Below are positions 12,072 through 24,997 of a stretch of 64,000 nucleotides of DNA, piece after piece (position 1 is the first letter of the stretch; every line of letters begins with the position of its first letter). The DNA is taken from positions 1 through 64,000 of the forward strand of contig NZ_BMQA01000025.1 in NCBI RefSeq assembly GCF_014647875.1. The letters are read 5' to 3'. Source of the stretch: Streptomyces brasiliensis (lineage in GTDB: Bacteria > Actinomycetota > Actinomycetes > Streptomycetales > Streptomycetaceae). The notes beneath the pieces were generated by a model. That model saw only the letters and a program-made list of their open reading frames with translations. It did not search any database and was not told the origin of the DNA. Both the position numbers and the translations under genes were made by a program.

Positions 12072-15000
12072 TCAGCCGATGGTGACCAGGGTCCCGGCGC
12101 CGTTCGGGTAGGCGACGTAGCCTGTGGCGGGCTTGTCGCCGGGTACGCCCGACCACGAGGCGGTGAGCGTCACGGGGACGCCCGGGGTGGTCGCCGGGTG
12201 GGTGGGCGACACCGTGAAGGTGCCGGGTGCGGTCGGGCCGTCCGGCGTGACCAGGTTCGACTGGAAGGTGAAGGGCGTGCTCGTGGTACCCGGCGCGTTC
12301 CCGAGGTTGACCACGATGGCGACGTAGTTGCCCGGCTTGAGGGTGCTCAGGCTGACCAGCGGCCGGTTCTGCTCGAGAGCGATGTCGCCGACCACGAACG
12401 GCTTCTGGCCGTCACCCGGGTTGTAGGCGATCAGCAAGGTCAGCTTGGCGTCGGGGTTGTCCGGCGTCACGAAGAACTGCCCGGCCCTGGTGCCCTCGGG
12501 GACGGTGAACGCGAAGTCCTGCTCGCTGTTGTCCGGCGAGGACACCGATCCCTTGACCGAGGGGCCGACGATGGGACCGATCGCCTGGGGCGTGAGGTTC
12601 GCGGTGCCCGGCGTGACGGAGAAGGCCGCGCTGCCGCTGCCCGCGGGGCCGCTCACGGCGTTCGGCGCGAGCACGCTCCACGGCGTGATGACGACGGGAC
12701 TGCGCACCTCGGTGCCGCCGTGCGTCCACACCAGCGAGCCGGTGGTCAACTCGCCCGAGGGTGCGGTGGTCTGCTCGAAGGTGATGGTGAACTTCGCGGT
12801 CTGCCCCGCCTTGTTGAAGGTCAGGGTGGACGGGTGAACGGTGGCCTTCATGCCCGGCACGTCGACCGTGGCGCGGTACGTGCCGGCGGCGACCGCCGTG
12901 ACCTCGCGGGTGACGGTCTGCGAGCCGACCAACTGGCCGATCGATATGGACGGGTAGTTGAGATCGCTGGGGCCAACGGCCTTCACTCCGGTTCCGGTGT
13001 CGACCCCCAGGCCCTCCAGGTAGGCCAGCCAGTCCTGCTCCGAGGAGTCGTAGACCAGGCCGGGGTTGAGCATGTCGGAGGGGTTCACCTCACCGGCGCC
13101 CTGGGCGTACACATCCGTGTTGTCCGCGCCCGACGCGGTCTTGGTGTCCACCGTGGTGGTCATCATCGCGGACTTGACCGCCATCGGCGACCAGGTGGGG
13201 TGCTGGGCGAGGTACAGCGCGGCGAGGCCCGAGATCTGCGGCGTCGCCATCGATGTGCCGCTGAGGAAGTCGAAGGTGTGGCCGGAGTTGGACGGGGGCG
13301 CCACCGCGGCGAGGATGCCGACTCCTGGAGCGGCGATGTCGGGCTTGAGCAGGTCGCCCTTGTTCACCACGGAGGGTCCGCGCGATGAGAACGGCGCGAT
13401 CTGCGGGTAGGGCTGGCCCGTCGTGCCGCCCGGAACCAGGCTGGCCGTGGCGCCCTGCGTCGCGGCGTACGCGCGTACGTTCGCGGCGTCCGGGACGTTC
13501 AGGTGCACGGTCGGAATGCTGTGCAGATCGGCGTCGGTCTCCAGGTCGGTGCGGTTGACCAGCACCATGCCCACGCCGCCGGCCCGGGCGACCTCGGCGG
13601 ACTTGGCCACCCGAGGGTTGACCCCACGGTCGCAGACCACGATCGTGCCCGCCACCTTCGCCGGGTCCAGGGAGCCGTCCTGGCACAGCTGGGCGTCGGA
13701 GGTGGTGGCGCTTGCGTTCTTCACGTTCTCGGCGAGCACCAGGGGCTTCGGGCCGACCGTCGTCTCGACCGTGGTGCTGGAGCCGACGAAGCTGTGGCCG
13801 TCGCCGAGCTGCACCGTGGCCTCGTACGGCTGGATGGTGCTGGCAGCGACCGTCGTCGTCCAGGGTGCGACGTTGTCGAGGCTGGACGGGTCCGGGCCGG
13901 AGTTGCCGGCGGCCGTGGAGACGAAGATGCCCGCGGCGGCCGCTGTGCGGAAGGCCGCCTGAACCGGGCTGTCGGGGCCGGTCTCGATGATCGACCCCGC
14001 CGAGTAGTTGAGCACATCCACGCCGTCGGCGACGGCCTGGTCCACAGCGGCGACGATGTCCGAGTTCAGGGCCCCGGAGTCGCTGGCCGACTTGCCTGTC
14101 CAGAACGCCTTGTACACGGCGATCGCTGCGCCCGGCGCGACGCCGGAGATTTTTCCGAAGTCCCGGTTGCCCACGGTGACATCGACGTCGGCGTCACCGG
14201 CGGCCGTCGACGCGGTGTGCGTGCCGTGGCCCTCGCCGTCCCGCGGGGAGATGTAGTCGGCTCGGCGCTCCGGGGGGACGATCGACGTCCATCCGTCGCC
14301 GAAGTAACGGGCGCTGATCACCTTGCTGTTGCAGGCGCTCATGGTGAACTGCTCGCCGGTCTGGCAGGTTCCGGTGAACGTGCTGCCGTCGGCCTTGTGC
14401 ATCACGGTCGTGGAGCCCTGCAGGTAGGGGCGGTACGGGTTCTTCGCCGTCGGGCTGGCGGTGCCCAGCGGCGAGGCGGCGAACGAGGGGCTCTCCGGCC
14501 AGATTCCGGTGTCGATGTCACCGATCACCACGCCCTTGCCCGCGTTCGCGGTGCCGCCGAGCGACGCCCACAGGCCGTGCTTCCCGGAAAGGCCGAGGAA
14601 ATCGGTGGAGTTCTTGTCGTCGTTCGTCTTGTTCCACGTGTCCGGGGTGACCGACAGGACCCCGGGCTCACCGGTCAGCTTGACGGCCTGGGCGGCGGAC
14701 AGGGTGGCGGTGAAGCCGTTCGTGGCGACGGCGTAGCGGTCCTTGACCTTGGCACCGACGGTGGCCGCGACACCGTTCTGCTGCCGCGTCAGGTGGTCAC
14801 GGTAGCGCCGCGCGTTGGCGCTGGCCACGTTCACCTTTGCGCCCTTGGCCGGTGCGGTGGCGGCGATGCCGTCAACACCGCCCTGGTAGGTCACGATGGG
14901 TTTGTCGGCAAGGGTGACGACGTAGCGGCCGGCCGCCAGGTGGGACGCGGTCGGGACGGGAGCGGGAGCAGCGGCGGCCGCGGGGGACTGCATGGTCGCG

Positions 15001-15086
15001 GGCAGGGCGGTTGCGGCGACGAGGGCGATCGTCGCGAGCGCGGCGGATCTGCCGCGTGGGGTGGGGGCCAACTCAGGGTCCTCCAT
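12072..15086 (-). CDS. Secreted S8 subtilisin-like protease with PA domain
   Basis: This 1004-residue protein is a secreted serine protease. Residues 12-40 form a signal peptide (ALATIALVAATALP, then Ala-rich cleavage region). An I9-type propeptide follows at about 50-150. The catalytic triad is Asp192 in GDIDTGIWPE, His287 in GEGHGTH and Ser612 in LSGTSMATP. The oxyanion Asn lies in TAAGNSGPD near 395. A protease-associated (PA) domain is inserted at about 450-555. The tail from 690 on holds Fn3-like beta domains (TREVTAVAAGTYRATVDVPG) and ends in a further beta-sandwich. The length is typical of plant-cucumisin-like Streptomyces subtilases. It sits between two related HTH regulators, which suggests regulated secretion. 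Confidence 0.95.
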   Translation of the reverse strand: MEDPELAPTPRGRSAALATIALVAATALPATMQSPAAAAAPAPVPTASHLAAGRYVVTLADKPIVTYQGGVDGIAATAPAKGAKVNVASANARRYRDHLTRQQNGVAATVGAKVKDRYAVATNGFTATLSAAQAVKLTGEPGVLSVTPDTWNKTNDDKNSTDFLGLSGKHGLWASLGGTANAGKGVVIGDIDTGIWPESPSFAASPLGTASPTAKNPYRPYLQGSTTVMHKADGSTFTGTCQTGEQFTMSACNSKVISARYFGDGWTSIVPPERRADYISPRDGEGHGTHTASTAAGDADVDVTVGNRDFGKISGVAPGAAIAVYKAFWTGKSASDSGALNSDIVAAVDQAVADGVDVLNYSAGSIIETGPDSPVQAAFRTAAAAGIFVSTAAGNSGPDPSSLDNVAPWTTTVAASTIQPYEATVQLGDGHSFVGSSTTVETTVGPKPLVLAENVKNASATTSDAQLCQDGSLDPAKVAGTIVVCDRGVNPRVAKSAEVARAGGVGMVLVNRTDLETDADLHSIPTVHLNVPDAANVRAYAATQGATASLVPGGTTGQPYPQIAPFSSRGPSVVNKGDLLKPDIAAPGVGILAAVAPPSNSGHTFDFLSGTSMATPQISGLAALYLAQHPTWSPMAVKSAMMTTTVDTKTASGADNTDVYAQGAGEVNPSDMLNPGLVYDSSEQDWLAYLEGLGVDTGTGVKAVGPSDLNYPSISIGQLVGSQTVTREVTAVAAGTYRATVDVPGMKATVHPSTLTFNKAGQTAKFTITFEQTTAPSGELTTGSLVWTHGGTEVRSPVVITPWSVLAPNAVSGPAGSGSAAFSVTPGTANLTPQAIGPIVGPSVKGSVSSPDNSEQDFAFTVPEGTRAGQFFVTPDNPDAKLTLLIAYNPGDGQKPFVVGDIALEQNRPLVSLSTLKPGNYVAIVVNLGNAPGTTSTPFTFQSNLVTPDGPTAPGTFTVSPTHPATTPGVPVTLTASWSGVPGDKPATGYVAYPNGAGTLVTIG

Positions 15087-16381: not shown

Positions 16382-16920
16382 GTGAGGACAGAGCTGGACT
16401 CCCTCGCCACCGCACTCATCGGGATGGCTCCGCAACCGGCCGATGCCGAGCTGGTCACGCTCGTGATGATGCAGGCCATGCCGGGCTTCACCTCCGAGGC
16501 CAAGTGGCTTCGCTACGCCCGCTCCCACCTGCGGCATCTCTTCCCCTGCCTGCCGAAGCAGCCCGGCTACAACAAGTGCCTGCGCAAGGCCGCCGAGTTG
16601 CTGCGGCGAGCGACCCGGCTGCTGGCCACCGACACCTCCGTATGGAGCGACGACGTGTGGATCGTGGATTCCACGCCGGTGGAGTGCGGACACTCCCGCG
16701 AGACCGTCAAACGCTCCGACCCGGCCGGATGGGCCGAGTACGGGTACTGCGCCAGCCACAGCCGCTTCTTCTGTGGCCTGTGCCTGCACCTGGTGTGCAC
16801 CCTGCAGGGCCTGCCGATCGCCTTCGCCCTGACCGGGGCCGAGGCCGACGAACGCGAGACTCTGCTGGACCTGCTTGCCGCCGAACCGGGCCTGACCGCC
16901 GCCCGGCCCGGACAGACGCC
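16382..16920 (+). pseudogene. Truncated IS982-family transposase
   Basis: The frame carries IS982-family transposase blocks: DAELVTLVMMQAMPGFTSEA, HLRHLFPCLPKQPGYNK, the catalytic DDVWIVDSTPVECGHSRETV, and WAEYGYCASHSRFFCGL. The N-terminal part has an internal deletion after LDSLATAL. The 3' end is lost at about 16920, within PGLTAARPGQT, before the later catalytic residues. The open frame reads on without a stop into the downstream mer-type gene, so a naive annotation would give a false 317-residue fusion protein. The break falls directly at the -35 box of the mer promoter. Confidence 0.85.
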
Positions 16921-16922
16921 GC

Positions 16923-16954
16923 TTGCAACCGGTACCTGGGTACAGGTTTACCGT
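16923..16954 (+). promoter_or_regulatory. MerR-type promoter/operator
   Basis: TTGCAA at 16923-16928 and TACCGT at 16949-16954 are separated by 20 bp. The spacer carries the dyad GTACC-TG-GGTAC (16932-16943). Over-long spacers with a centred dyad are the hallmark of promoters activated by MerR-family proteins. The merR-like gene lies second in the operon that this site would drive. Confidence 0.7.
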
Positions 16955-16999
16955 CGGAGGTGTCCCCAGCGGCGGGATGTGATGACGGGAGTGAGTGCG

Positions 17000-17335
17000 A
17001 TGACGGATATGGCGTGGGTGCCGCAGTCCTGCACACTGCCCACCGAGGAGCGGCCTCTGCGGGTCGCCGAGTGGGACGCGCTGTTCGCCGAGCGGCTGAC
17101 CGCCCTGGCCCACCCCCAGGCGCTGCGCCTGCGCCTCGACCTGGTCGGAGGACCGGGGGTCGTCGACCGGATCCGTGACCTGGCGGAGCGTGAGGGCGGC
17201 TGCTGCTCGTTCTTCGCCTTCACCGTCACTCCGGGCGAGGACTTGGTCCACCTGGAGATCACGGTGGACCAGGCGCACGAGGCCGTTCTGGCGGCCATCG
17301 CCGCGCGGACGGGCACGGCGGGGGAGGCGCGGTGA
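17000..17335 (+). CDS. Conserved protein of unknown function in the MerR operon
   Basis: The product is 111 residues (MTDMAWVPQSCTLPTEERPL at the start). A Cys pair lies in EGGCCSFFAFTV, and the fold appears mixed alpha/beta. Homologues occur next to merR in other actinomycetes, where they carry no experimentally known role. The vicinal cysteines and the setting suggest a thiophilic metal or metalloid-binding role (inference). The ATG at 17000 has GGGAG 8 bp upstream; the longer open frame to the left is transposase. It overlaps the merR GTG start by 4 bp. Confidence 0.75.
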   Translation: MTDMAWVPQSCTLPTEERPLRVAEWDALFAERLTALAHPQALRLRLDLVGGPGVVDRIRDLAEREGGCCSFFAFTVTPGEDLVHLEITVDQAHEAVLAAIAARTGTAGEAR

Positions 17336-17778
17336 GCACGGGCCTGCGCAGTGGGCAGGTGGCCGAGGCGGCCGGGGTGAATGTCCAGACGCTGCGCTAC
17401 TACGAGCGGCGCGGTCTGCTGGCCGAGCCGGAGCGCAGCAACGGCGGGCACCGCCTGTACGGCGAGGAGGCAGTGACCGCGCTGCGGGTCATCAAGGCCG
17501 CCCAGCGCCTGGGGTTCACGCTGGATGAGGTGGCCGAGCTGCTGGAGGCCGGGCGCCATCGCCACGGCCGCCCGGTCGCCGGGTTGCAGGAGCGGGCGGC
17601 CTCCAAGCTCGCCGAGGTCGACGCGAAGATCGCCGACCTCAGTACGATCCGCACCGCCCTGGCCGCGGCCGTCGAAGCGGGCTGCGACGACCTGACCGTC
17701 TGCGCCTCGATGGACTGCTGCCCCATTCCCTTCACCGACCTCGCCGAGGAGAACCGCCATGCCGGCCCCTGCTGCTGA
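17332..17778 (+). CDS. merR: MerR-family regulator, probably mercury or thiophilic-metal responsive
   Basis: This 148-residue MerR protein has a winged helix (SGQVAEAAGVNVQTLRYYER at 7-26, RGLLAEPERSNGGHRLY), a dimerisation helix (about 80-115) and a Cys-rich metal loop (Cys118, Cys124, Cys129, Cys130) close to the CxxxxxC pattern of Hg(II)-sensing MerR. Two more cysteines end the protein (GPCC). The first of the three cysteines of classical MerR, at the start of the dimerisation helix, is not apparent: this region reads LLEAGRHRHGRP. The metal specificity is therefore uncertain. It starts at a GTG overlapping the preceding stop and overlaps the next gene, so the three genes form one operon under the dyad promoter at 16923. 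Confidence 0.88.
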   Translation: MSTGLRSGQVAEAAGVNVQTLRYYERRGLLAEPERSNGGHRLYGEEAVTALRVIKAAQRLGFTLDEVAELLEAGRHRHGRPVAGLQERAASKLAEVDAKIADLSTIRTALAAAVEAGCDDLTVCASMDCCPIPFTDLAEENRHAGPCC

Positions 17779-18073
17779 TCCGCACCCCCGCAAGACGCCG
17801 AGGGTGCTCGCGGCTCTGGCCGCCCTGGCCTGCGTGGCGTGCTGCGCGCTGCCCGTCCTGATCACCGCGGGAGTCCTGGGTGCCGGCGCCGGGGCGGTGG
17901 TGGGCTGGCTGCCCGCCCTCGCCGTCGTCCTGGCCGTGCTCGCCGGCGGAACCTGGTGGCTCGGACAACGCCGCCACGCCTGCTCCTGCACGCCCGAAGC
18001 GGCTGGTGAGGACGGGTGCGGGTGCCAGTCGTCGCCGCACCCAGTGAAGATCACCGGAATGGGCCGTCAGTAG
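17759..18073 (+). CDS. MerT/MerF-like small membrane protein
   Basis: This 104-residue protein has two transmembrane helices ([20 protein letters not shown], then [20 protein letters not shown]). The first has a CVACC motif, as in the MerF/MerT/MerC mercury importers, where a Cys pair in the first helix carries Hg(II). The cytosolic tail adds CSC and CGC pairs. It overlaps merR by 20 bp. No mercuric reductase (merA) or organomercurial lyase is in the window, so the operon looks incomplete as a resistance system. It may serve transport or sensing only. Function is inferred from motifs and context. Confidence 0.75.
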
Positions 18074-18360
18074 GGTCACCGGCCTGGTTGTCGCTCGCTC
18101 TGTTCGAGATCGGCGGCGCCTGGCTGGTGTGGCAGGGCATCCGTGCACACAAGGGCTGGATCTGGGCCGGCGCCGGCGTCATCTCCCTGGGCCTGTACTC
18201 AGTCGTCGCCACCTGGCAGCAGGATGACAACTTCGGCCGGATCCTCGCCGCCTGCGGCGGGATCTTCGTCGCCGGGTCCATGCCCGATCTGCTGATCACC
18301 TTCGACCCTCCGTACATGCTTGTCACGGACCGTCTCATCGAGGAGACAGCCGTCTTCTGA
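18070..18360 (+). pseudogene. YnfA-family (UPF0060) membrane protein, C-terminally replaced
   Basis: The frame gives [20 protein letters not shown] and [20 protein letters not shown], then [17 protein letters not shown], which is the central part of the four-helix YnfA/UPF0060 family. The expected continuation (the next two helices) is replaced after FVAGS (near 18283) by an unrelated 26-residue tail ending at 18360. The normal N-terminal start is also missing. YnfA genes often lie in metal-resistance operons, so this was probably the fourth gene of the mer-type operon before a deletion. Confidence 0.7.
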
Positions 18361-18469
18361 CACCTTCGCGGCCCTGGGGCGGTCGCGTAAACGTGGCGCT
18401 GCGCCTGGGCCTCCGGTCCCCAGCTTCCCCCAGCGTGTCGCGACGCCTGCGTCATTCGGCGCCATGACC

Positions 18470-18737
18470 GGCCGAAGTACGTCCGCGCTCATGTCCACGG
18501 ACACTTGCGCTGTCCGCCCGGACCACGGCACCGCCGGCAACGACAACACCATCGAGGTGCGGCGCGCGACGGTCGCCGGCGTGCGTCCCCGGCACGGGCC
18601 TGGCGCGCAACGCCCGGATACCGAAAGCGCCTCTTGCGCACCGGCAACTGCGGTTCGAGCCGGTCCCACAGCTCATCCGACACGCTCCGCGGCATGTTTC
18701 GGATCTCCAGGTCGTCGATCGGCAGCGAACCCCACAT
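18470..18737 (-). pseudogene. Degraded IS5-type transposase remnant
   Basis: On the minus strand MPRSVSDELWDRLEPQLPVR followed by KRRFRYPG resembles the N-terminus of IS5-family transposases (DxxWxxIxPLLP). A second frame carries ADSASVRGHERG, similar to the DSxxVRA catalytic motif of the same family. The two are out of frame and everything else is missing. This is a weak call, based on two short motifs in the right order. Confidence 0.4.
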
Positions 18738-18794
18738 GTGGCTGGACCCGTCGGCGGCTTGTCCGCGTGACCGCCGGGGCCGAGAAAGCACAGC

Positions 18795-18860
18795 GGACTG
18801 CGTTCGGAGAAGCCCTGGTTCCGCACCACAGGACGCGGGTTCGATTACTGCCATCTCCAC
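18795..18860 (+). ncRNA. ssrA: 3' fragment of ssrA (tmRNA), probable attachment-site remnant
   Basis: GACTGCGTTCGGAGAAGCCC, then GGACGCGGGTTCGATT and CCATCTCCAC, match the conserved 3' tRNA-like end of actinobacterial tmRNA (T arm and acceptor strand). The expected CCGCC after GATT reads ACTGCC, so the T stem is mutated, and no CCA is encoded. The upstream tag-peptide region and the 5' acceptor half are absent. A perfect terminator follows 11 bp later, as in intact ssrA genes. The ssrA 3' end is a well-known integrase target, so I read this as one end (attL or attR) of a past integration. No integrase gene is visible. Confidence 0.65.
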
Positions 18861-18871
18861 TCTTCCCGTGG

Positions 18872-18909
18872 ACACGAAGGGCCCCGCCGCACGGCAGGGC
18901 CCTTCGTGT
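18872..18909. terminator. Perfect hairpin terminator
   Basis: A 13-bp perfect inverted repeat (18872-18884 with 18897-18909) lies just after the ssrA fragment and 14 bp from the stop of the minus-strand protease at 18924. It can serve both directions. Confidence 0.85.
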
Positions 18910-18923
18910 CTCCAAGAGTCAGG

Positions 18924-21900
18924 TCACCTCAGGCCGAAGGCCCGGACGACGGTCTGGGTGACGGAACTTCCCGCGGCGGCCTTCGCAGTCGTCCGCAGGG
19001 AGACGAACCGGGCTCCGGACGGGGCGCGCAGGGACGCCCGCCAGTTGCCCTCCTTCTCGAGGTCCTTCTTCAGGACCTGCGTCTGCCAGGTGGCGCCGTC
19101 GTCATAGGAGACCTCCAGCCGCACGGAGGCCACCGCGCCGGCTCCGGCGGCGCCCGGCACCGACGGCGTGATCGTCAGGTCGGACGTGCGTGCGGCCCGC
19201 CCGGCGGCGTCCAGGTCCGTCCCGTAGTCCAGCTGCACCAGCGGCACGGGCGTGCCGCTGGGCTGCGCGCCGGAGGTGAAGTCCCACTCGGTGCGGGTCC
19301 GGGCGGAGTAGGGGCTGAACGCCGGGTCGCCGGTTGTCTCGTCCACCAGCCGGTAGGGCAGCTCTTCCGGGGCCAGGTCGTAGGCGTACAGATAGGGGTT
19401 GTGCGTCTGCAGGAGCTGCCGGTCGCCCTGGTACAGCGTGACCGTGGAGGACATCTGCGTGCCGTACTGGGTGTCGCCGCTGTGTGCGGCTCCGGAGTCG
19501 CTGAAGCCGTGGAGCACCATGGACAGCGAGGTCTCGTCGCGCGTCGGGATCGCGTCGTGGGTCATCCGGGGGCGGACGACCGGTGCGAACCACCGCTCCT
19601 CGTGGATGCTGCGCGGCGCGTAGGACGTCGGCTCGTTCTGCGCGCCGAGCCAGCCCGGGATGTAGGCCGACTGCTGCCATGTGACGTCGTCGCTCGCCGA
19701 GACCCAGTCGGTGCGCGGTCCCTGGGCGGCGGGCTCGTAGCCGAACGCGGGGGCCGCGGCCCAGTCGTAGGGCGGGAAGTCCGTGCGCGACTCCGTGGCC
19801 TGCTTCCCGGCGGGCTGGGCGAAGTCGACGTCCACCCGGGCCAGGTTTTTCGGGTCAGCCGTCAGGGAGGCGTCCTCGGGGACGGCGCCCATGTGGTACT
19901 TGACGAGGTCGTACAGGTACGCGGGCGCCGGGTGGGCGGTCACCCGCACCTGCACCGGCCGGTTCCCCGGCGCGGCGGTGATCTGCCGGATCAGCTCCTC
20001 ACCCTCCTCGTGGGTCACAGAGGCGGCGGGCAGCGGCCCGGTGGTGACCCCGTCCGCGTTCCCGTACCAGTCGTCGACGCGCCCCAGGCCGTCGTTGACC
20101 ACCAGCAGCAGCGCCGCACCGGCCGCGCGGGCCGCCGCGGCCTGCTCCGACGGGGACACCCCGGCGTTGCGGCGGACCACGGCGACGGCGCCCCGGGCGG
20201 ACAGGCCGGCGTAGTCGGCGGCCGAGCCGTGGCCGGCGAACACCGCGGCGGACACCGACGTGCCGTCCGGCAGTGGCCGGGACCCGCGCTGTGCGAGCGT
20301 GTCGTCGAGGTGCCGGCCGCCGTAGGACACGTCGAGCGGGGTCTGCTCGGCGCGCAGCCGCGTGGTGAAGACGAAGCTGCCGTGCGCGACCTTGTCACCG
20401 GTCGGCTGGGCCCAGACGCTGTCGTACCCGGAGGAGACCATGGCGGTGCTCACGAAGGAGCGGTAGTCGCCGGGGGCCGGCACGGTCGAGGCGAACGAGC
20501 GGAAGTACTCCAGCCGGGTGTTCACCAGGGCCGTCGGCTTCGGTGTCAGGGCCCGCACCTGGTGCGCCTGCGAGGCGTCCAGGGCGATCTCCCGGTCCTG
20601 CGTCAGCTCCACCTCGGGGTCGCCGAGCAGGGCGATCCCCCGGGAGCTCGCTCCGTGGGTGCCCTGGACCCCCGTGAACATCATCACGGAGTACGAGTCG
20701 GGGGCCAGGCGCAGCGTCAGCGTGCCGGAGTCGGGGACCTCCTGGAACATGGTGGAGGTGCCGAGGGCGCCCTTGATCTCGGCGAGCCCTCCCATGGGCC
20801 GGCCATCGCGGTCCTTCACCGTGACGGTGAGGTCGTACCGCTCGGGCTCGACGCTCACGCCCACCGTGGTGTGCGCGACGACCGCGCCCGAGGCGTTCCG
20901 CGCGAGGACCTGCCCGGTGTAGTTCCCGGCGGCCAGACGGCCCCGGCTTGCGACGAGATTCACCTGCGAGCTGCCGTGGGCCGGCACGGTCACCTCGTCG
21001 GCGTCCAGGACGAACGCCTCGGCGGGCGAGGTGCGGGGGTCCACCGCGAGCTGCAGCGTCACGGGGGCGTCCCCCGTGTTGGTGTATGTGATCGGCCGCT
21101 CGACCGGCGCGGGGGTCTCCCGCGACCAGCGCAGCTGTGCGAACGCCGAGCCCGTCGCCACGACTTCGGTGTGGGCGGCGGCGGCCGCGTCGACACGCCC
21201 GGACCCGCCCTGGTAGGCGGTGAAGCCGGGGGTCGGCCTGCTGGTGCTCATCAGGGCGTCCTTGAGCTGCTGCCCGGTCCAGTCGGGGTGCTCCTGCGCC
21301 AGCAGCACCGCGGCGCCGGCGACATGGGGCGCCGCCATCGAGGTGCCGCTCAGCGTCATGTAGGAGCCCTCGCCCTCCTGGGCGTACTGCGAGCGGGCCG
21401 CCAGGATGTCTACTCCCGGCGCGCTCAGGTCGGGCTTGAGGCCCTCGTCGCCCTTGCGTGGACCGGCGCTGGAGCGGGGATCGACCTGGTCGGCGGAGTT
21501 CCCCGCCGCGACGGTGAGCGCGGCGTCGGCGGTACCGGGGGCGCTGACGCTGTACGGGGAGGGACCGGAGTTGCCCGCGGCGACGACGAAGAGCGTCCCG
21601 GTCTCGGCGCTGAGCGCGTTGAGGCTCTGGCTCATCGGGTCGTTCTGGTCGTTGATCCAGCGGTTGCCCAGGCTCATGTTGACGACCTTGGCGTGCGCGG
21701 TCCGTGCCGCCCACTCCATGCCGGCGATGATCCAGGACTCCTGCCCCACGCCGTCGTTGTCGAGGACCTTGCCGATCAGCAGGTCGGCGTCGGGGGCGAC
21801 GCCCTTCTCCTTGCCGCCGGAGGCGGCGCCCGTGCCGGCGACGGTGGACGCGGTGTGCGTCCCATGGCCGTCCCGGTCGGTGACGTCCTGGTCGGGCACG

Positions 21901-22730
21901 AAGCTGCGGGTGTCGACGATGCGCGGTGCGAGGTCCGGGTGCTCCTCGTCGACGCCGGTGTCCAGGACCGCGACTCTGACGCCGGCGCCGGTGGTTCCCG
22001 TGTTCCAGACCTGGGGCGCGCCGATCTGGGCCGTGGAGTCCGCGAGGGTGGCCTCGCTCTTGCCGTCCAGCCAGATCTTGTCGATGGCCGCCGCGAACGA
22101 AGGCGCGGCGGGGGCGCCGGCGGCGGCCGTCCTGCCCGCCGCCGGCGTGCCCGCCCCGTTGGTGAGGGCGGACCAGAAGGCGGCCGCTGTGGACCGGTCG
22201 GCGGTGATCGCCTCGCCGTCGACGGACGGGAGGGCCAGCTTCGTCTGCGTGCCCGGCAGTTCGGCGGAGGTGCTCCGGAGCGCCGCGTGCTTCGAGTTCT
22301 TCGCGTGCGTGACGATCAGGGGCAGCCGGGGTGCCCGGCTGTCGTCGTAGCCCTGCGCTATGAGCTGCGTGACGTCGAACAGGCGCTTGTCGAGGCGGTC
22401 CGCGGCGACGTAGGCGAGAGTCTCCTCCGGATACACATAGGTGTCGGCTCCCTCGGTGACGACGCGCACCACACCGGTTGCGCCGGGCGGGCGTTCCACG
22501 CTGACCGAGCCCGACGTTCCCTTGGGGCCCGGGGCGACGGTCACCTTGTCACCGGTGATCAGGGTGACCACCCGCGGTGCACCGGCGGCCGGCCCCGGAG
22601 CGGGTGACGTTGCCGACTTCCCGTCGAGGGCGGCGTCTTGGGCCGCCGCGGACGGAAGGACCGTGGCCAGCACGGCGACTGACGCGCCGAGAGCCAGCAC
22701 GGCTGATCTTCGGAAAGGGGGGTGTCCCAC
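18924..22730 (-). CDS. Secreted S8 subtilisin-like protease, 1268 residues
   Basis: This large secreted protease has a signal peptide (RRSAVLALGASVAVLATVLP at 7-26, cleavage near AAAQD), a propeptide region to about 215 and a subtilase domain. Asp257 lies in VAVLDTGVDEEHPDL, His289 in DGHGTHTAST, Asn in AAGNSGPSP and Ser464 in SGTSMAAPHVAG. The subtilase part ends near 520. A long C-terminal part of about 750 residues follows, with Fn3-like beta modules and a PA-like segment near 830-890 (ARGAVAVVRRNAG, AAGAALLLVVNDG). Long Streptomyces subtilases of this type degrade extracellular proteins. An ATG start with GAGGAACAGT upstream fits. It faces the catabolic cluster divergently. Confidence 0.95.
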   Translation of the reverse strand: MGHPPFRRSAVLALGASVAVLATVLPSAAAQDAALDGKSATSPAPGPAAGAPRVVTLITGDKVTVAPGPKGTSGSVSVERPPGATGVVRVVTEGADTYVYPEETLAYVAADRLDKRLFDVTQLIAQGYDDSRAPRLPLIVTHAKNSKHAALRSTSAELPGTQTKLALPSVDGEAITADRSTAAAFWSALTNGAGTPAAGRTAAAGAPAAPSFAAAIDKIWLDGKSEATLADSTAQIGAPQVWNTGTTGAGVRVAVLDTGVDEEHPDLAPRIVDTRSFVPDQDVTDRDGHGTHTASTVAGTGAASGGKEKGVAPDADLLIGKVLDNDGVGQESWIIAGMEWAARTAHAKVVNMSLGNRWINDQNDPMSQSLNALSAETGTLFVVAAGNSGPSPYSVSAPGTADAALTVAAGNSADQVDPRSSAGPRKGDEGLKPDLSAPGVDILAARSQYAQEGEGSYMTLSGTSMAAPHVAGAAVLLAQEHPDWTGQQLKDALMSTSRPTPGFTAYQGGSGRVDAAAAAHTEVVATGSAFAQLRWSRETPAPVERPITYTNTGDAPVTLQLAVDPRTSPAEAFVLDADEVTVPAHGSSQVNLVASRGRLAAGNYTGQVLARNASGAVVAHTTVGVSVEPERYDLTVTVKDRDGRPMGGLAEIKGALGTSTMFQEVPDSGTLTLRLAPDSYSVMMFTGVQGTHGASSRGIALLGDPEVELTQDREIALDASQAHQVRALTPKPTALVNTRLEYFRSFASTVPAPGDYRSFVSTAMVSSGYDSVWAQPTGDKVAHGSFVFTTRLRAEQTPLDVSYGGRHLDDTLAQRGSRPLPDGTSVSAAVFAGHGSAADYAGLSARGAVAVVRRNAGVSPSEQAAAARAAGAALLLVVNDGLGRVDDWYGNADGVTTGPLPAASVTHEEGEELIRQITAAPGNRPVQVRVTAHPAPAYLYDLVKYHMGAVPEDASLTADPKNLARVDVDFAQPAGKQATESRTDFPPYDWAAAPAFGYEPAAQGPRTDWVSASDDVTWQQSAYIPGWLGAQNEPTSYAPRSIHEERWFAPVVRPRMTHDAIPTRDETSLSMVLHGFSDSGAAHSGDTQYGTQMSSTVTLYQGDRQLLQTHNPYLYAYDLAPEELPYRLVDETTGDPAFSPYSARTRTEWDFTSGAQPSGTPVPLVQLDYGTDLDAAGRAARTSDLTITPSVPGAAGAGAVASVRLEVSYDDGATWQTQVLKKDLEKEGNWRASLRAPSGARFVSLRTTAKAAAGSSVTQTVVRAFGLR

Positions 22731-22929
22731 TGTTCCTCCATGAAGTTATGTGATCAAAATTGATCATCTCTCCTTCGGGTCTTGGTGATCCAGGGGTTTC
22801 GGATCGGTAACTTGCCTGCCTTCCCGTCACACTGACGCTCCGTCACCTCCGGTCGATACGCCCATCGACGATATGGACCAACTGCGGCCTGGTGAGGACT
22901 TCGTCCCGGCCGCCGACTGCGAACAGGAG

Positions 22930-22956
22930 CACCCCCGAGCGCTTGCGCCGGGGGTG
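22930..22956. terminator. GC-rich hairpin in the divergent intergenic region
   Basis: An 8-bp inverted repeat (22930-22937 with 22949-22956) with an 11-base loop lies between the protease start and the crotonase start. No gene ends here, so it may be an insulator-like hairpin or a regulatory structure rather than a classical terminator. Confidence 0.45.
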
Positions 22957-22972
22957 AGGGACTGTCACTATT

Positions 22973-22986
22973 CTACCGATCGGTCG
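22973..22986. promoter_or_regulatory. Palindrome CTACCG-AT-CGGTCG, candidate TetR operator
   Basis: The core ACCGATCGGT is a perfect 10-bp palindrome, 66 bp upstream of the crotonase start at 23052. A matching site occurs at 27488-27501 next to the TetR gene at 26697-27341, which is therefore the likely regulator of both. Confidence 0.6.
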
Positions 22987-23051
22987 ATTTTTCTCGACCG
23001 TTGAGTTGGTCAAGGGGCAACGGGTAAGAGTTGGCAGAAGCGAGTGGAGAT

Positions 23052-23825
23052 ATGCTGGAATTCGAGTTCCTGGACGTGCGGACCACGAACCGTGTTGCGA
23101 CCGTCACGATGAACCGACCGCCCGTCAACGCCGTCGGCGTGCCGATGTACGACGAGATCAAGGCCCTGTTCAGTGAGATCGAGCGCCATGCGCCCCAGGC
23201 GCGGGTCGTCATCCTGACGGGAGCCGGCAAGCACTTCTGCGGTGGGAATGATCTTGACGAATTCCTGACCATGAACCCGGAGAACGCCGCTGAGCGCATG
23301 AGGCATGTGCGCGAGGCGTTCTGGTCGATCTACGACTGTCCCCTGCCGGTGATCGCGGCCGTTCATGGCGTCGCCGTGGGGACAGGACTGGCACTGGCCG
23401 GCTCGTGTGACATGGTCGTGGCCGCCGAGGGTGCCAGGTTCAGCCTCCCCGAGATCCAGGTCGGCGCGATGGGCGGTGCCAAGCACGCCTCGCGCCTGGT
23501 CCCGCAGGCGCTGGTGCGCCGCATGCACTTCACCGGCGACATGGTCCCGGTCGAGGAACTGGCCAGGTACGGCGGCATCGACAACGTCGTGCCCGGCGAT
23601 CAACTGCTCGTCGCCGCAACCGAGTTGGCCCAACGGATCGCCCGGCACAGCCCGGTCGCCATCAGAATGGCCAAGCGCAGCCTGAATCACATCGAGTACA
23701 TGGGACTCAAGGACGGTTACGCGTTCGAGCAGAGTCTCACCGGCGAACTCTCCGGATACGACGACGCCAAGGAGGCTGTCACCGCCTTCTTCGAGCGGCG
23801 TGAGCCGCAGTACACCGGGAAGTGA
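23052..23825 (+). CDS. Enoyl-CoA hydratase/isomerase (crotonase)
   Basis: This crotonase of about 257 residues starts its first strand at VATVTMNRPPVNAVG. The oxyanion-hole signals are LTGAGKHFCGGNDLDEFL near residue 70 and VHGVAVGTGLALAGSCDMVV near 108. The acidic residue of LPEIQVGAMGG is kept, as in active hydratases. It should hydrate an enoyl-CoA in beta-oxidation, or isomerise a related thioester. The ATG at 23052 is chosen, although a TTG at 23031 is also possible. It is the first gene of a four-gene operon with two acyl-CoA dehydrogenases and a SnoaL-fold protein. The TetR-type palindrome at 22973 lies upstream. Confidence 0.92.
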   Translation: MLEFEFLDVRTTNRVATVTMNRPPVNAVGVPMYDEIKALFSEIERHAPQARVVILTGAGKHFCGGNDLDEFLTMNPENAAERMRHVREAFWSIYDCPLPVIAAVHGVAVGTGLALAGSCDMVVAAEGARFSLPEIQVGAMGGAKHASRLVPQALVRRMHFTGDMVPVEELARYGGIDNVVPGDQLLVAATELAQRIARHSPVAIRMAKRSLNHIEYMGLKDGYAFEQSLTGELSGYDDAKEAVTAFFERREPQYTGK

Positions 23826-23833
23826 GCTGCGGC

Positions 23834-24997
23834 ATGGCCCACATCACAGACCTGGATGCCTACCGTCGACAGATCCGAGCGTGGCTCGCGCAGGCGACCG
23901 TCCCCGAGGTGCCCCTCGACCTGGAAGGCCGCTTCACTGTCCTGCGAGCGTGGCAGAAGACTCTCTACGAGGCCGGATTCGTCGGGATCTCCTGGTCCAA
24001 GGCGGTCGGCGGGCAAGGACTCACCCCGCTGCACCAGCTGGTCTTCTCCGAGGAGCTCGCCCGAGCCGGAGCCCCGCAGCCCATCGGCCTGATCGGCGTG
24101 GATGTCGTGGGCAAGTCGATCGAGACGTATGGGCGCGAATGGCAACGGGAGCAGTTGCTGCCCCGCCTGCTGTCCGGCGACGACATCTGGTGTCAGGGAT
24201 TCTCCGAGCCGGAGTCCGGATCCGACCTGGCCTCGCTGCGTACCCGCGCACGGATCGAGGGTGATGAATTCGTCATAAACGGCCAGAAAGTATGGACCAG
24301 TTGGGCCCACAAGGCTCAGTGGTGCGCACTGTTGGCGCGCACGGACGCGGACGCGCCGAAACACAGGGGCATCAGCTACATCCTCGTCGACATGAGTACC
24401 CCCGGCGTCACCGCACGGCCGCTGGTGCAGATGACCGGTGACGACGAGTTCTGCGAGGTCTTCTTCGAGGACGTCCGTGTGCCGGTGGGCAATCTGGTCG
24501 GAAAGCTCCATGAGGGGTGGGCCATCGCCCAGGACACCCTGAGTCACGAGCGGGGTTCGTACACGCTCCGCCGGCGCGTGGAGTACGAGGTGGCAGTCGA
24601 GGAGGCTGTGCGGGACCTGCGAGACCATGTCGACGAGACCGGAACCGAACCCTCGGACTGGGTCCTTGAGCAGCTCGGCCGCTCCTACACGGCGGTGCGG
24701 TCGCTGGAGGCGCTGACCCGCCGGACCATTGAGCGGCAGCTCGCCGGCGACATTCCCAGCCCTCTCGACTCGGTGGACAAGCTCAGCCTCAACGAGGTGG
24801 AGCAGCTGGTCTACACATCCATCACCAACGTTCTCGGGCCGTTCCGCCTGGCAGCCGACGGGGTTGCGTTCGGTCTCGACGGCCCGCGGTGGGTCAAGGA
24901 TCACTACTACTCCCGGGCGGCGTCCATCTACGGGGGGACGTCCCAGATTCAGAAGAACATCATCGGCGAGCGACTGTTGGGACTGCCCCGTGGCTGA
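23834..24997 (+). CDS. Acyl-CoA dehydrogenase (large, FadE-type)
   Basis: This 387-residue flavoprotein has the usual ACAD layout: an N-terminal helical domain, a middle beta domain (WCQGFSEPESGSDLASLRT, the FAD/substrate signature, then VINGQKVWTSWAHKAQWCAL) and a C-terminal helical domain ending GGTSQIQKNIIGERLLGLPR. It should introduce a 2,3-double bond in an acyl-CoA. The next gene encodes a smaller ACAD with an 8-bp overlap. Paired ACADs of unequal type form alpha2beta2 heterotetramers in actinobacterial steroid and terpenoid side-chain degradation (FadE26/27, FadE28/29), so the two probably work as one enzyme. The ATG at 23834 is preferred over a GTG at 23822 overlapping the previous stop. 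Confidence 0.95.
   Translation: MAHITDLDAYRRQIRAWLAQATVPEVPLDLEGRFTVLRAWQKTLYEAGFVGISWSKAVGGQGLTPLHQLVFSEELARAGAPQPIGLIGVDVVGKSIETYGREWQREQLLPRLLSGDDIWCQGFSEPESGSDLASLRTRARIEGDEFVINGQKVWTSWAHKAQWCALLARTDADAPKHRGISYILVDMSTPGVTARPLVQMTGDDEFCEVFFEDVRVPVGNLVGKLHEGWAIAQDTLSHERGSYTLRRRVEYEVAVEEAVRDLRDHVDETGTEPSDWVLEQLGRSYTAVRSLEALTRRTIERQLAGDIPSPLDSVDKLSLNEVEQLVYTSITNVLGPFRLAADGVAFGLDGPRWVKDHYYSRAASIYGGTSQIQKNIIGERLLGLPRG

Follow-up and report, generated by a model that had tools for sequence, protein, structure and literature searches.

How does the 3′ end of an ssrA gene, followed by a terminator-like hairpin, come to lie directly behind a protease gene and apart from the remainder of a tmRNA gene, and does it mark the border of an element integrated at ssrA, as an earlier note on this DNA had proposed? 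The window, meaning the whole stretch of DNA analysed here, corresponds to bases 1–64,000 of C25, a contig of 114,932 bp in a Streptomyces genome of 10.69 Mb and 278 contigs. We find that the sequence is an ordinary decayed ssrA tail, a molecular fossil in a mosaic of gene scraps. Analyses of its pairing, of its flanks and of related loci across the genus allow us to weigh where it came from, how it may have been stranded and what use its hairpin may now have.

Extent and identity of the ssrA-derived tract

On the + strand, positions 18728–18860 align with the last 133 nt of ssrA (nt 235–367 of 367). With the linker included, the alignment to the genome's own ssrA (nt 235–377) reaches 18870 (144 columns, 83% identity, E 9e-37, BLASTN). 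The ssrA homology has its 3′ end at 18860, from where a linker and a terminator-like hairpin continue up to 18910. The first two features are:

18728–18860, + strand: decayed ssrA tail (PK4, then the 3′ tRNA-like end), a pseudogene (blastn, genus matches, alignments)
18861–18870, + strand: ssrA 3′ linker, part of the ssrA-derived tract (aligned with the regions downstream of 30 ssrA genes)

The 5′ tRNA-like half and the tag frame are missing, homology starting only at ssrA nt 235. An ssrA 3′ end with its terminator and without the rest of the gene had been recognized before, from 18795 on, and our alignments bear this out over a longer stretch that starts at 18728. Across the genus, 148 of 150 genomes, its own included, match 18725–18925 at E ≤ 0.001, one of them (G130) with an E of only 1.2e-4; the main matches listed are 76–90% identical to the tract.

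The tmRNA covariance model (RF00023) gives the tail 18.6 bits, with an E of 3.4e-5 in a search space of 1.2 kb and of 7.1e-5 in a search of the whole genome. The match thus exceeds chance, on which the earlier note had made its reading depend, but narrowly and under the Rfam gathering score of 47 bits. Five places in the genome other than the real ssrA outscore it (24.5–30.5 bits), of which at least four are tRNA genes according to ARAGORN and most or all are probably such genes. Neither a scan at the Rfam gathering cut-off nor ARAGORN gave any match in the window. As the covariance model is weak by itself, it is the plain alignment that decides the homology. The complete ssrA for which the earlier note had advised a search lies on another contig (C8:281312–281680, 170 bits with the covariance model), beside a gene that, judged by eye, may be smpB. 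Its tag peptide matches Streptomyces species in the ARAGORN list, and on this basis the genus is taken as Streptomyces. The presence of this complete gene rules out that the tail is the 3′ end of the genome's sole ssrA in a rearranged assembly.

Decay of the tmRNA part

To describe the decay we used an alignment of 30 ssrA genes, namely the genome's own and the 29 best genus loci, all of which passed the 3′-end pattern, with none dropped. At 12 of the 105 columns that are invariant in these genes the tail is changed, or at 11 if an edge column is left out (column 2, which merely marks where the tail was cut for the alignment). The same test applied to the genes themselves in leave-one-out controls gave no change in 25 of 30 and a single change in the other 5. 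The T stem, whose five pairs are all formed in 30/30 ssrA genes, has one of five pairs broken and one G-U pair in the tail, and the fold of the 3′ tRNA-like stretch is no more stable than those of its shuffled versions (z −0.75). The PK4 pseudoknot keeps 12 of 12 pairs. The tail is a dead copy, an ssrA pseudogene fragment freed from tmRNA constraint, and it yields no working tmRNA, which agrees with the earlier argument from the mutated T stem.

Linker, hairpin and right junction

Behind the linker, the tract runs into a hairpin and then into a convergent gene:

18871–18910, strand not assigned: terminator-like hairpin, on the − strand 13 nt past the stop of the protease gene (stem, folding, flank score)
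18924–22730, − strand: S8 subtilase gene, convergent with the tail and with an intact open frame of 1268 aa (Pfam PF00082, 3e-60)

The hairpin has a stem of 18 pairs on the − strand. The terminator had earlier been described as perfect; on the + (ssrA) strand it is not, having one C-A mismatch, and on the − strand that pair is G-U and the stem is unbroken. Folded as 55 nt, the − strand reaches −46.1 kcal/mol as against −37.8 kcal/mol for the + strand, with z-scores of −8.0 and −7.4, respectively. A terminator scan of 17000–24000 did not report the hairpin, which has no U tail.

We scored linker and hairpin together, as a 52-nt stretch starting at the last base of the gene, against the downstream flanks of the 30 ssrA genes. 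The score to the nearest flank is 29.5, a value reached by none of 3436 random 52-mers from the window, which were scored against the first 8 of the 30 flanks; 88 hairpins were scored against all 30, and the best that comes neither from an ssrA end nor from this place reached 17.0. On this comparison the hairpin, too, is probably ssrA-derived. In most of the 30 flanks a TCCCATG-like box stands between ssrA and the hairpin, whatever the sequence of the hairpin.

On its right side, the DNA that the protease gene shares with its two paralogues in this genome reaches as far as 18922, two bases past the stop codon. The hairpin ends at 18910, or at 18918 if its outer CTCTT/AAGAG arms are counted. 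With the stem ending at 18910 and the protease homology at 18922, the right junction lies between these two positions. Between 18860 and 18918 the palindrome reaches outward past the hairpin (CTCTT ... AAGAG). The CTCTT arm depends on a base in which this linker departs from other ssrA linkers (CTCAT); the outward palindrome might be a trace of template-switch repair.

A candidate terminator of the S8 protease gene

The position of the hairpin suggests a role for it on the protease side: it is plausibly the terminator of the convergent S8 gene. The two paralogues of the 1268-aa protease, on C1 and C8, show 69.5% and 73% DNA identity, and a hairpin of 13–20 pairs stands 4–42 nt behind the stop in 7/7 of the protease relatives compared, a non-random sample of these two paralogues and five high-ranking loci. 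Searching for the orthologous locus by way of the protease gave no close one (55% protein identity at best, with 80 loci kept of 440). Two S8 protease genes flank the scrap region, at 12072–15086 (1004 aa) and 18924–22730 (1268 aa).

One reading of this arrangement goes further. The hairpin of a dead, foreign ssrA would have replaced the native terminator of the protease gene and would now be kept by selection on the protease strand. It cites the G-U pair on the protease strand and the C-A mismatch on the ssrA strand, in a tract whose tmRNA part rots. A single base pair says little about selection on the hairpin, and we put this take-over forward tentatively, with more doubt than confidence.

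GC-rich hairpins are frequent both in genomes of this kind and in the protease's family, so the hairpin could also be the protease's own. The ssrA tract would then stop at the linker, and the native terminator of the protease gene would follow it. The strong hairpins near the stop in all seven protease relatives compared fit this proposal, as does a stem that is unbroken on the protease strand. They are to be set against a linker and hairpin that keep the same register behind the ssrA 3′ end as their counterparts in other ssrA genes, and against the difference in flank score (29.5 against 17.0). We regard a native origin of the hairpin as unlikely; it would concern the hairpin only and is compatible with the remainder of our preferred reading, that of a stranded ssrA tail.

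A mosaic of scraps and intact genes on the left

The left flank contains remnants of other genes, and three features stand nearest to the tail:

16921–18057, + strand: merR mini-module (118-aa-type ORF, MerR, small Cys-rich protein), apparently intact (G016 similarity, MerR models)
18087–18281, + strand: internal scrap of ynfA (UPF0060), without either end (Pfam PF02694, 1.1e-18, profile positions 10–72 of 107)
18612–18697, − strand: N-terminal scrap of an IS5-family transposase, about 86 nt, cut on both sides (DNA matches, longer relative)

DNA matches to the IS5 scrap (73–88% identity) occur in 53 of 295 genus genomes, and the family was assigned through a longer relative that matches the IS5 / DUF4096 models. 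The IS5 homology stops at about 18697; the 30 nt that separate it from the ssrA tail (18698–18727) are without assigned homology, and no IS end was seen at this junction. The ynfA scrap is 77% identical to a fuller ynfA of the same genome on C66. Both truncated pieces lie within 650 bp of the ssrA tail.

The merR module shows 82.9% DNA identity over 1143 columns to contig C3 of G016. MerR models match 17332–17778. With the cut-offs applied, the first and last genes of the module matched no family; DUF1096 came up below threshold. The left side had been described as worn, with a decayed mer operon, and the right as intact. IS and gene scraps do lie on the left; so do apparently intact genes, among them the 1004-aa S8 protease gene, regulators, an alcohol dehydrogenase gene and the merR mini-module, which belongs to what had been called the decayed operon.

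Two further truncated genes were observed on this side. Positions 16442–16880 hold the N-terminal part of an IS982-family transposase (NCBIfam 9e-29, residues 21–166 of a 317-aa ORF); as it runs in frame into the first ORF of the merR module, mechanical ORF calling fuses both. Near the contig end, 511–1086 hold a truncated luciferase-like monooxygenase gene (profile positions 154–321 of 337). Gene-scrap mosaics with truncated pieces side by side are known from Streptomyces accessory regions.

Evidence for and against an integration border

A border at ssrA is a reasonable expectation. Genomic islands of Dehalococcoides are flanked by ssrA and by a 20-bp repeat of its 3′ end, which is located downstream of the gene at a distance of up to 100 kb; in sixteen islands a serine recombinase forms part of an integration module (PMC3146451). 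The available part of an actinobacterial survey mentions tmRNA only as a cited prophage preference and in the title of a reference (PMC3218068). The tail could accordingly be a relict att site, either the far-end repeat or an attP-borne copy of a lost or rearranged element that had integrated at ssrA. In favour of this, ssrA is a known integration site at which islands leave a copy of the 3′ end (PMC3146451), and the tract here ends with the ssrA 3′ end and terminator and adjoins IS and gene scraps. C25 also holds two 15-nt matches (93%) to ssrA nt 348–367, at about 93.7 and 94.3 kb, but with an E of 7.7.

The remaining evidence argues against it. Of the genome's recombinase matches at E 0.001, 0/32 for PF00589 and 0/11 for PF00239 fall on C25 or C8. 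There is no significant second ssrA repeat on C25, which was compared over its whole length with ssrA and its flank and has no other match better than E 0.6, nor in 17 kb around the resident ssrA. The search that the earlier note had recommended thus found no integrase on the two contigs and no significant second att copy on C25. The tract is also long for a core: its start lies some 100 nt ahead of the 3′ tRNA-like domain, and it comprises 133 nt, linker and hairpin, unlike a short att core. Among 50 viral contigs with the ssrA 3′ 24-mer, none aligns with this ssrA over more than 36 nt, and the best 20 of the 75 places with phage matches span 33 bp.

The flank of the tail is not that of the resident ssrA, from which it differs in the type of both linker and hairpin, and the protease was not found within about 1.5 kb of the 30 ssrA genes. 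Behind the resident ssrA an esterase gene follows one place further on; of 30 other loci searched, one (L022) likewise has this gene after its ssrA, so the resident flank looks undisturbed there. With no integrase on C25 or C8, no significant second repeat and so long a tract, the proposed border of an element integrated at ssrA is not supported. As the contig extends only 18.7 kb to the left of the tail, there is room for a lost element, and we consider a relict att site improbable rather than refuted.

Origin of the tail

The stranded tail can be compared directly with the resident gene. Two PK4 pairs differ between them on both sides of the helix (A-T to G-C and T-A to C-G), and the pair types of the tail occur in 12/30 and 15/30 ssrA genes. 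The linker of the tail reads TCTTCCCGTG, the commonest in relatives being TCATCCCATG; it is of the CTC type (CTCTTCCC, in the relatives' form CTCATCCC), whereas the resident ssrA has a linker of the CGA type (CGATTCCC). Linkers of the types CTC, CAA and CGA recur among the 30 ssrA 3′ flanks (L001, L009–L037). Because two compensated PK4 pairs set it apart from the resident ssrA, the tail probably comes from another or older Streptomyces ssrA lineage and not from the resident gene, as judged by comparison of sequences.

A tree on 136 columns resolves little and is too short to decide the origin. In it, the resident ssrA falls within a supported clade of six (98/99) and the tail outside; FastTree groups the tail with L028 and L016, a set to which IQ-TREE gives a support of 93/86, not starred; and an AU test keeps a clade of tail and resident ssrA (p 0.33). 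As the tree does not reject this clade, the case for a foreign origin depends on the linker and on the altered pairs. The same AU result would suit an old ssrA duplicate that arose by rearrangement within the resident lineage and has since decayed. Such a duplicate would have to account for two compensated PK4 pairs and a linker type that are unlike the resident gene, and for the position of that gene in a supported clade from which the tail is absent; we think it very unlikely. Chance resemblance or an assembly error deserves practically no credence: the covariance score does lie under the family cut-off and below those of five other non-ssrA places in the genome, but the E of 9e-37 to the own ssrA and the matches across the genus refute chance, and the tail is too diverged from the resident ssrA for a misassembled duplicate.

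Other sources were considered and set aside. A phage tmRNA gene was rejected, none of the 75 phage records that match doing so over 80% of the query. For a plasmid donor, three records (11.8, 2.7 and 0.4 Mb) cover 58%, 50% and 29% of the query at 76–78%; two of these three records also turn up with the 3′ end of the resident ssrA as query, and nothing points to a plasmid donor of the tail. A 552-bp match of 65% in L022 that runs into the protease would make ssrA and protease neighbours there; as it is without protein-level support, it was taken as GC-rich drift.

Second ssrA pieces are rare in the genus. Among the 36 genomes with at least two matches, a second piece of at least 60 nt occurs in one only (G041), and the other second matches in the 36 rechecked genomes measure 20–47 nt. 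The piece in G041 (L159, 6960–8400) was rejected, being an inverted repeat of the same flank beside an N run; this inverted copy of the ssrA 3′ end with its flank is probably a scaffold join artefact.

Interpretation

Taken together, we consider it fairly likely that the tract is the 3′ tail of an ssrA of another or older lineage that was stranded by rearrangement, and that its hairpin probably ends the protease transcript. The final third of an ssrA gene, together with linker and hairpin, is cut off on its 5′ side. An illegitimate or IS-associated rearrangement probably stranded it in the mosaic of gene scraps, and its hairpin, 13 nt behind the protease stop, probably acts as the protease terminator.

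For the reading of similar loci, this means that finding an ssrA tail in a window does not by itself prove an integrated element. The decay of such a tail is measurable, and compensated pairs can help to separate a scrap of a foreign RNA gene from a duplicate of local origin. If the take-over of the terminator is true, the locus would be a small, clear case of a dead RNA gene that lends a working part to its neighbour. Its importance for biology at large is little.

Comparison with known systems

With the ssrA repeats of the Dehalococcoides islands the tail shares that a copy of the ssrA 3′ end lies away from the gene; those repeats measure 20 bp, whereas the tract here comprises 133 nt with linker and hairpin, lies on another contig than the gene and has no recombinase found with it (PMC3146451). 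With Streptomyces ssrA (RF00023) it has in common the last 133 nt, the PK4 pairing, the outline of the T arm, the 3′ acceptor strand, the linker and the terminator. Unlike that gene, it is without the 5′ two thirds and has no tag frame, its T stem contains one mismatch and one G-U pair, and 11–12 changes fall at invariant columns. The closest resemblance in setting is to the mosaics of Streptomyces accessory regions, with which this locus shares adjoining pieces of a truncated transposase gene, ynfA and an RNA gene, and from which it differs in that the RNA gene piece is a tail with a hairpin that its neighbour has possibly taken over.
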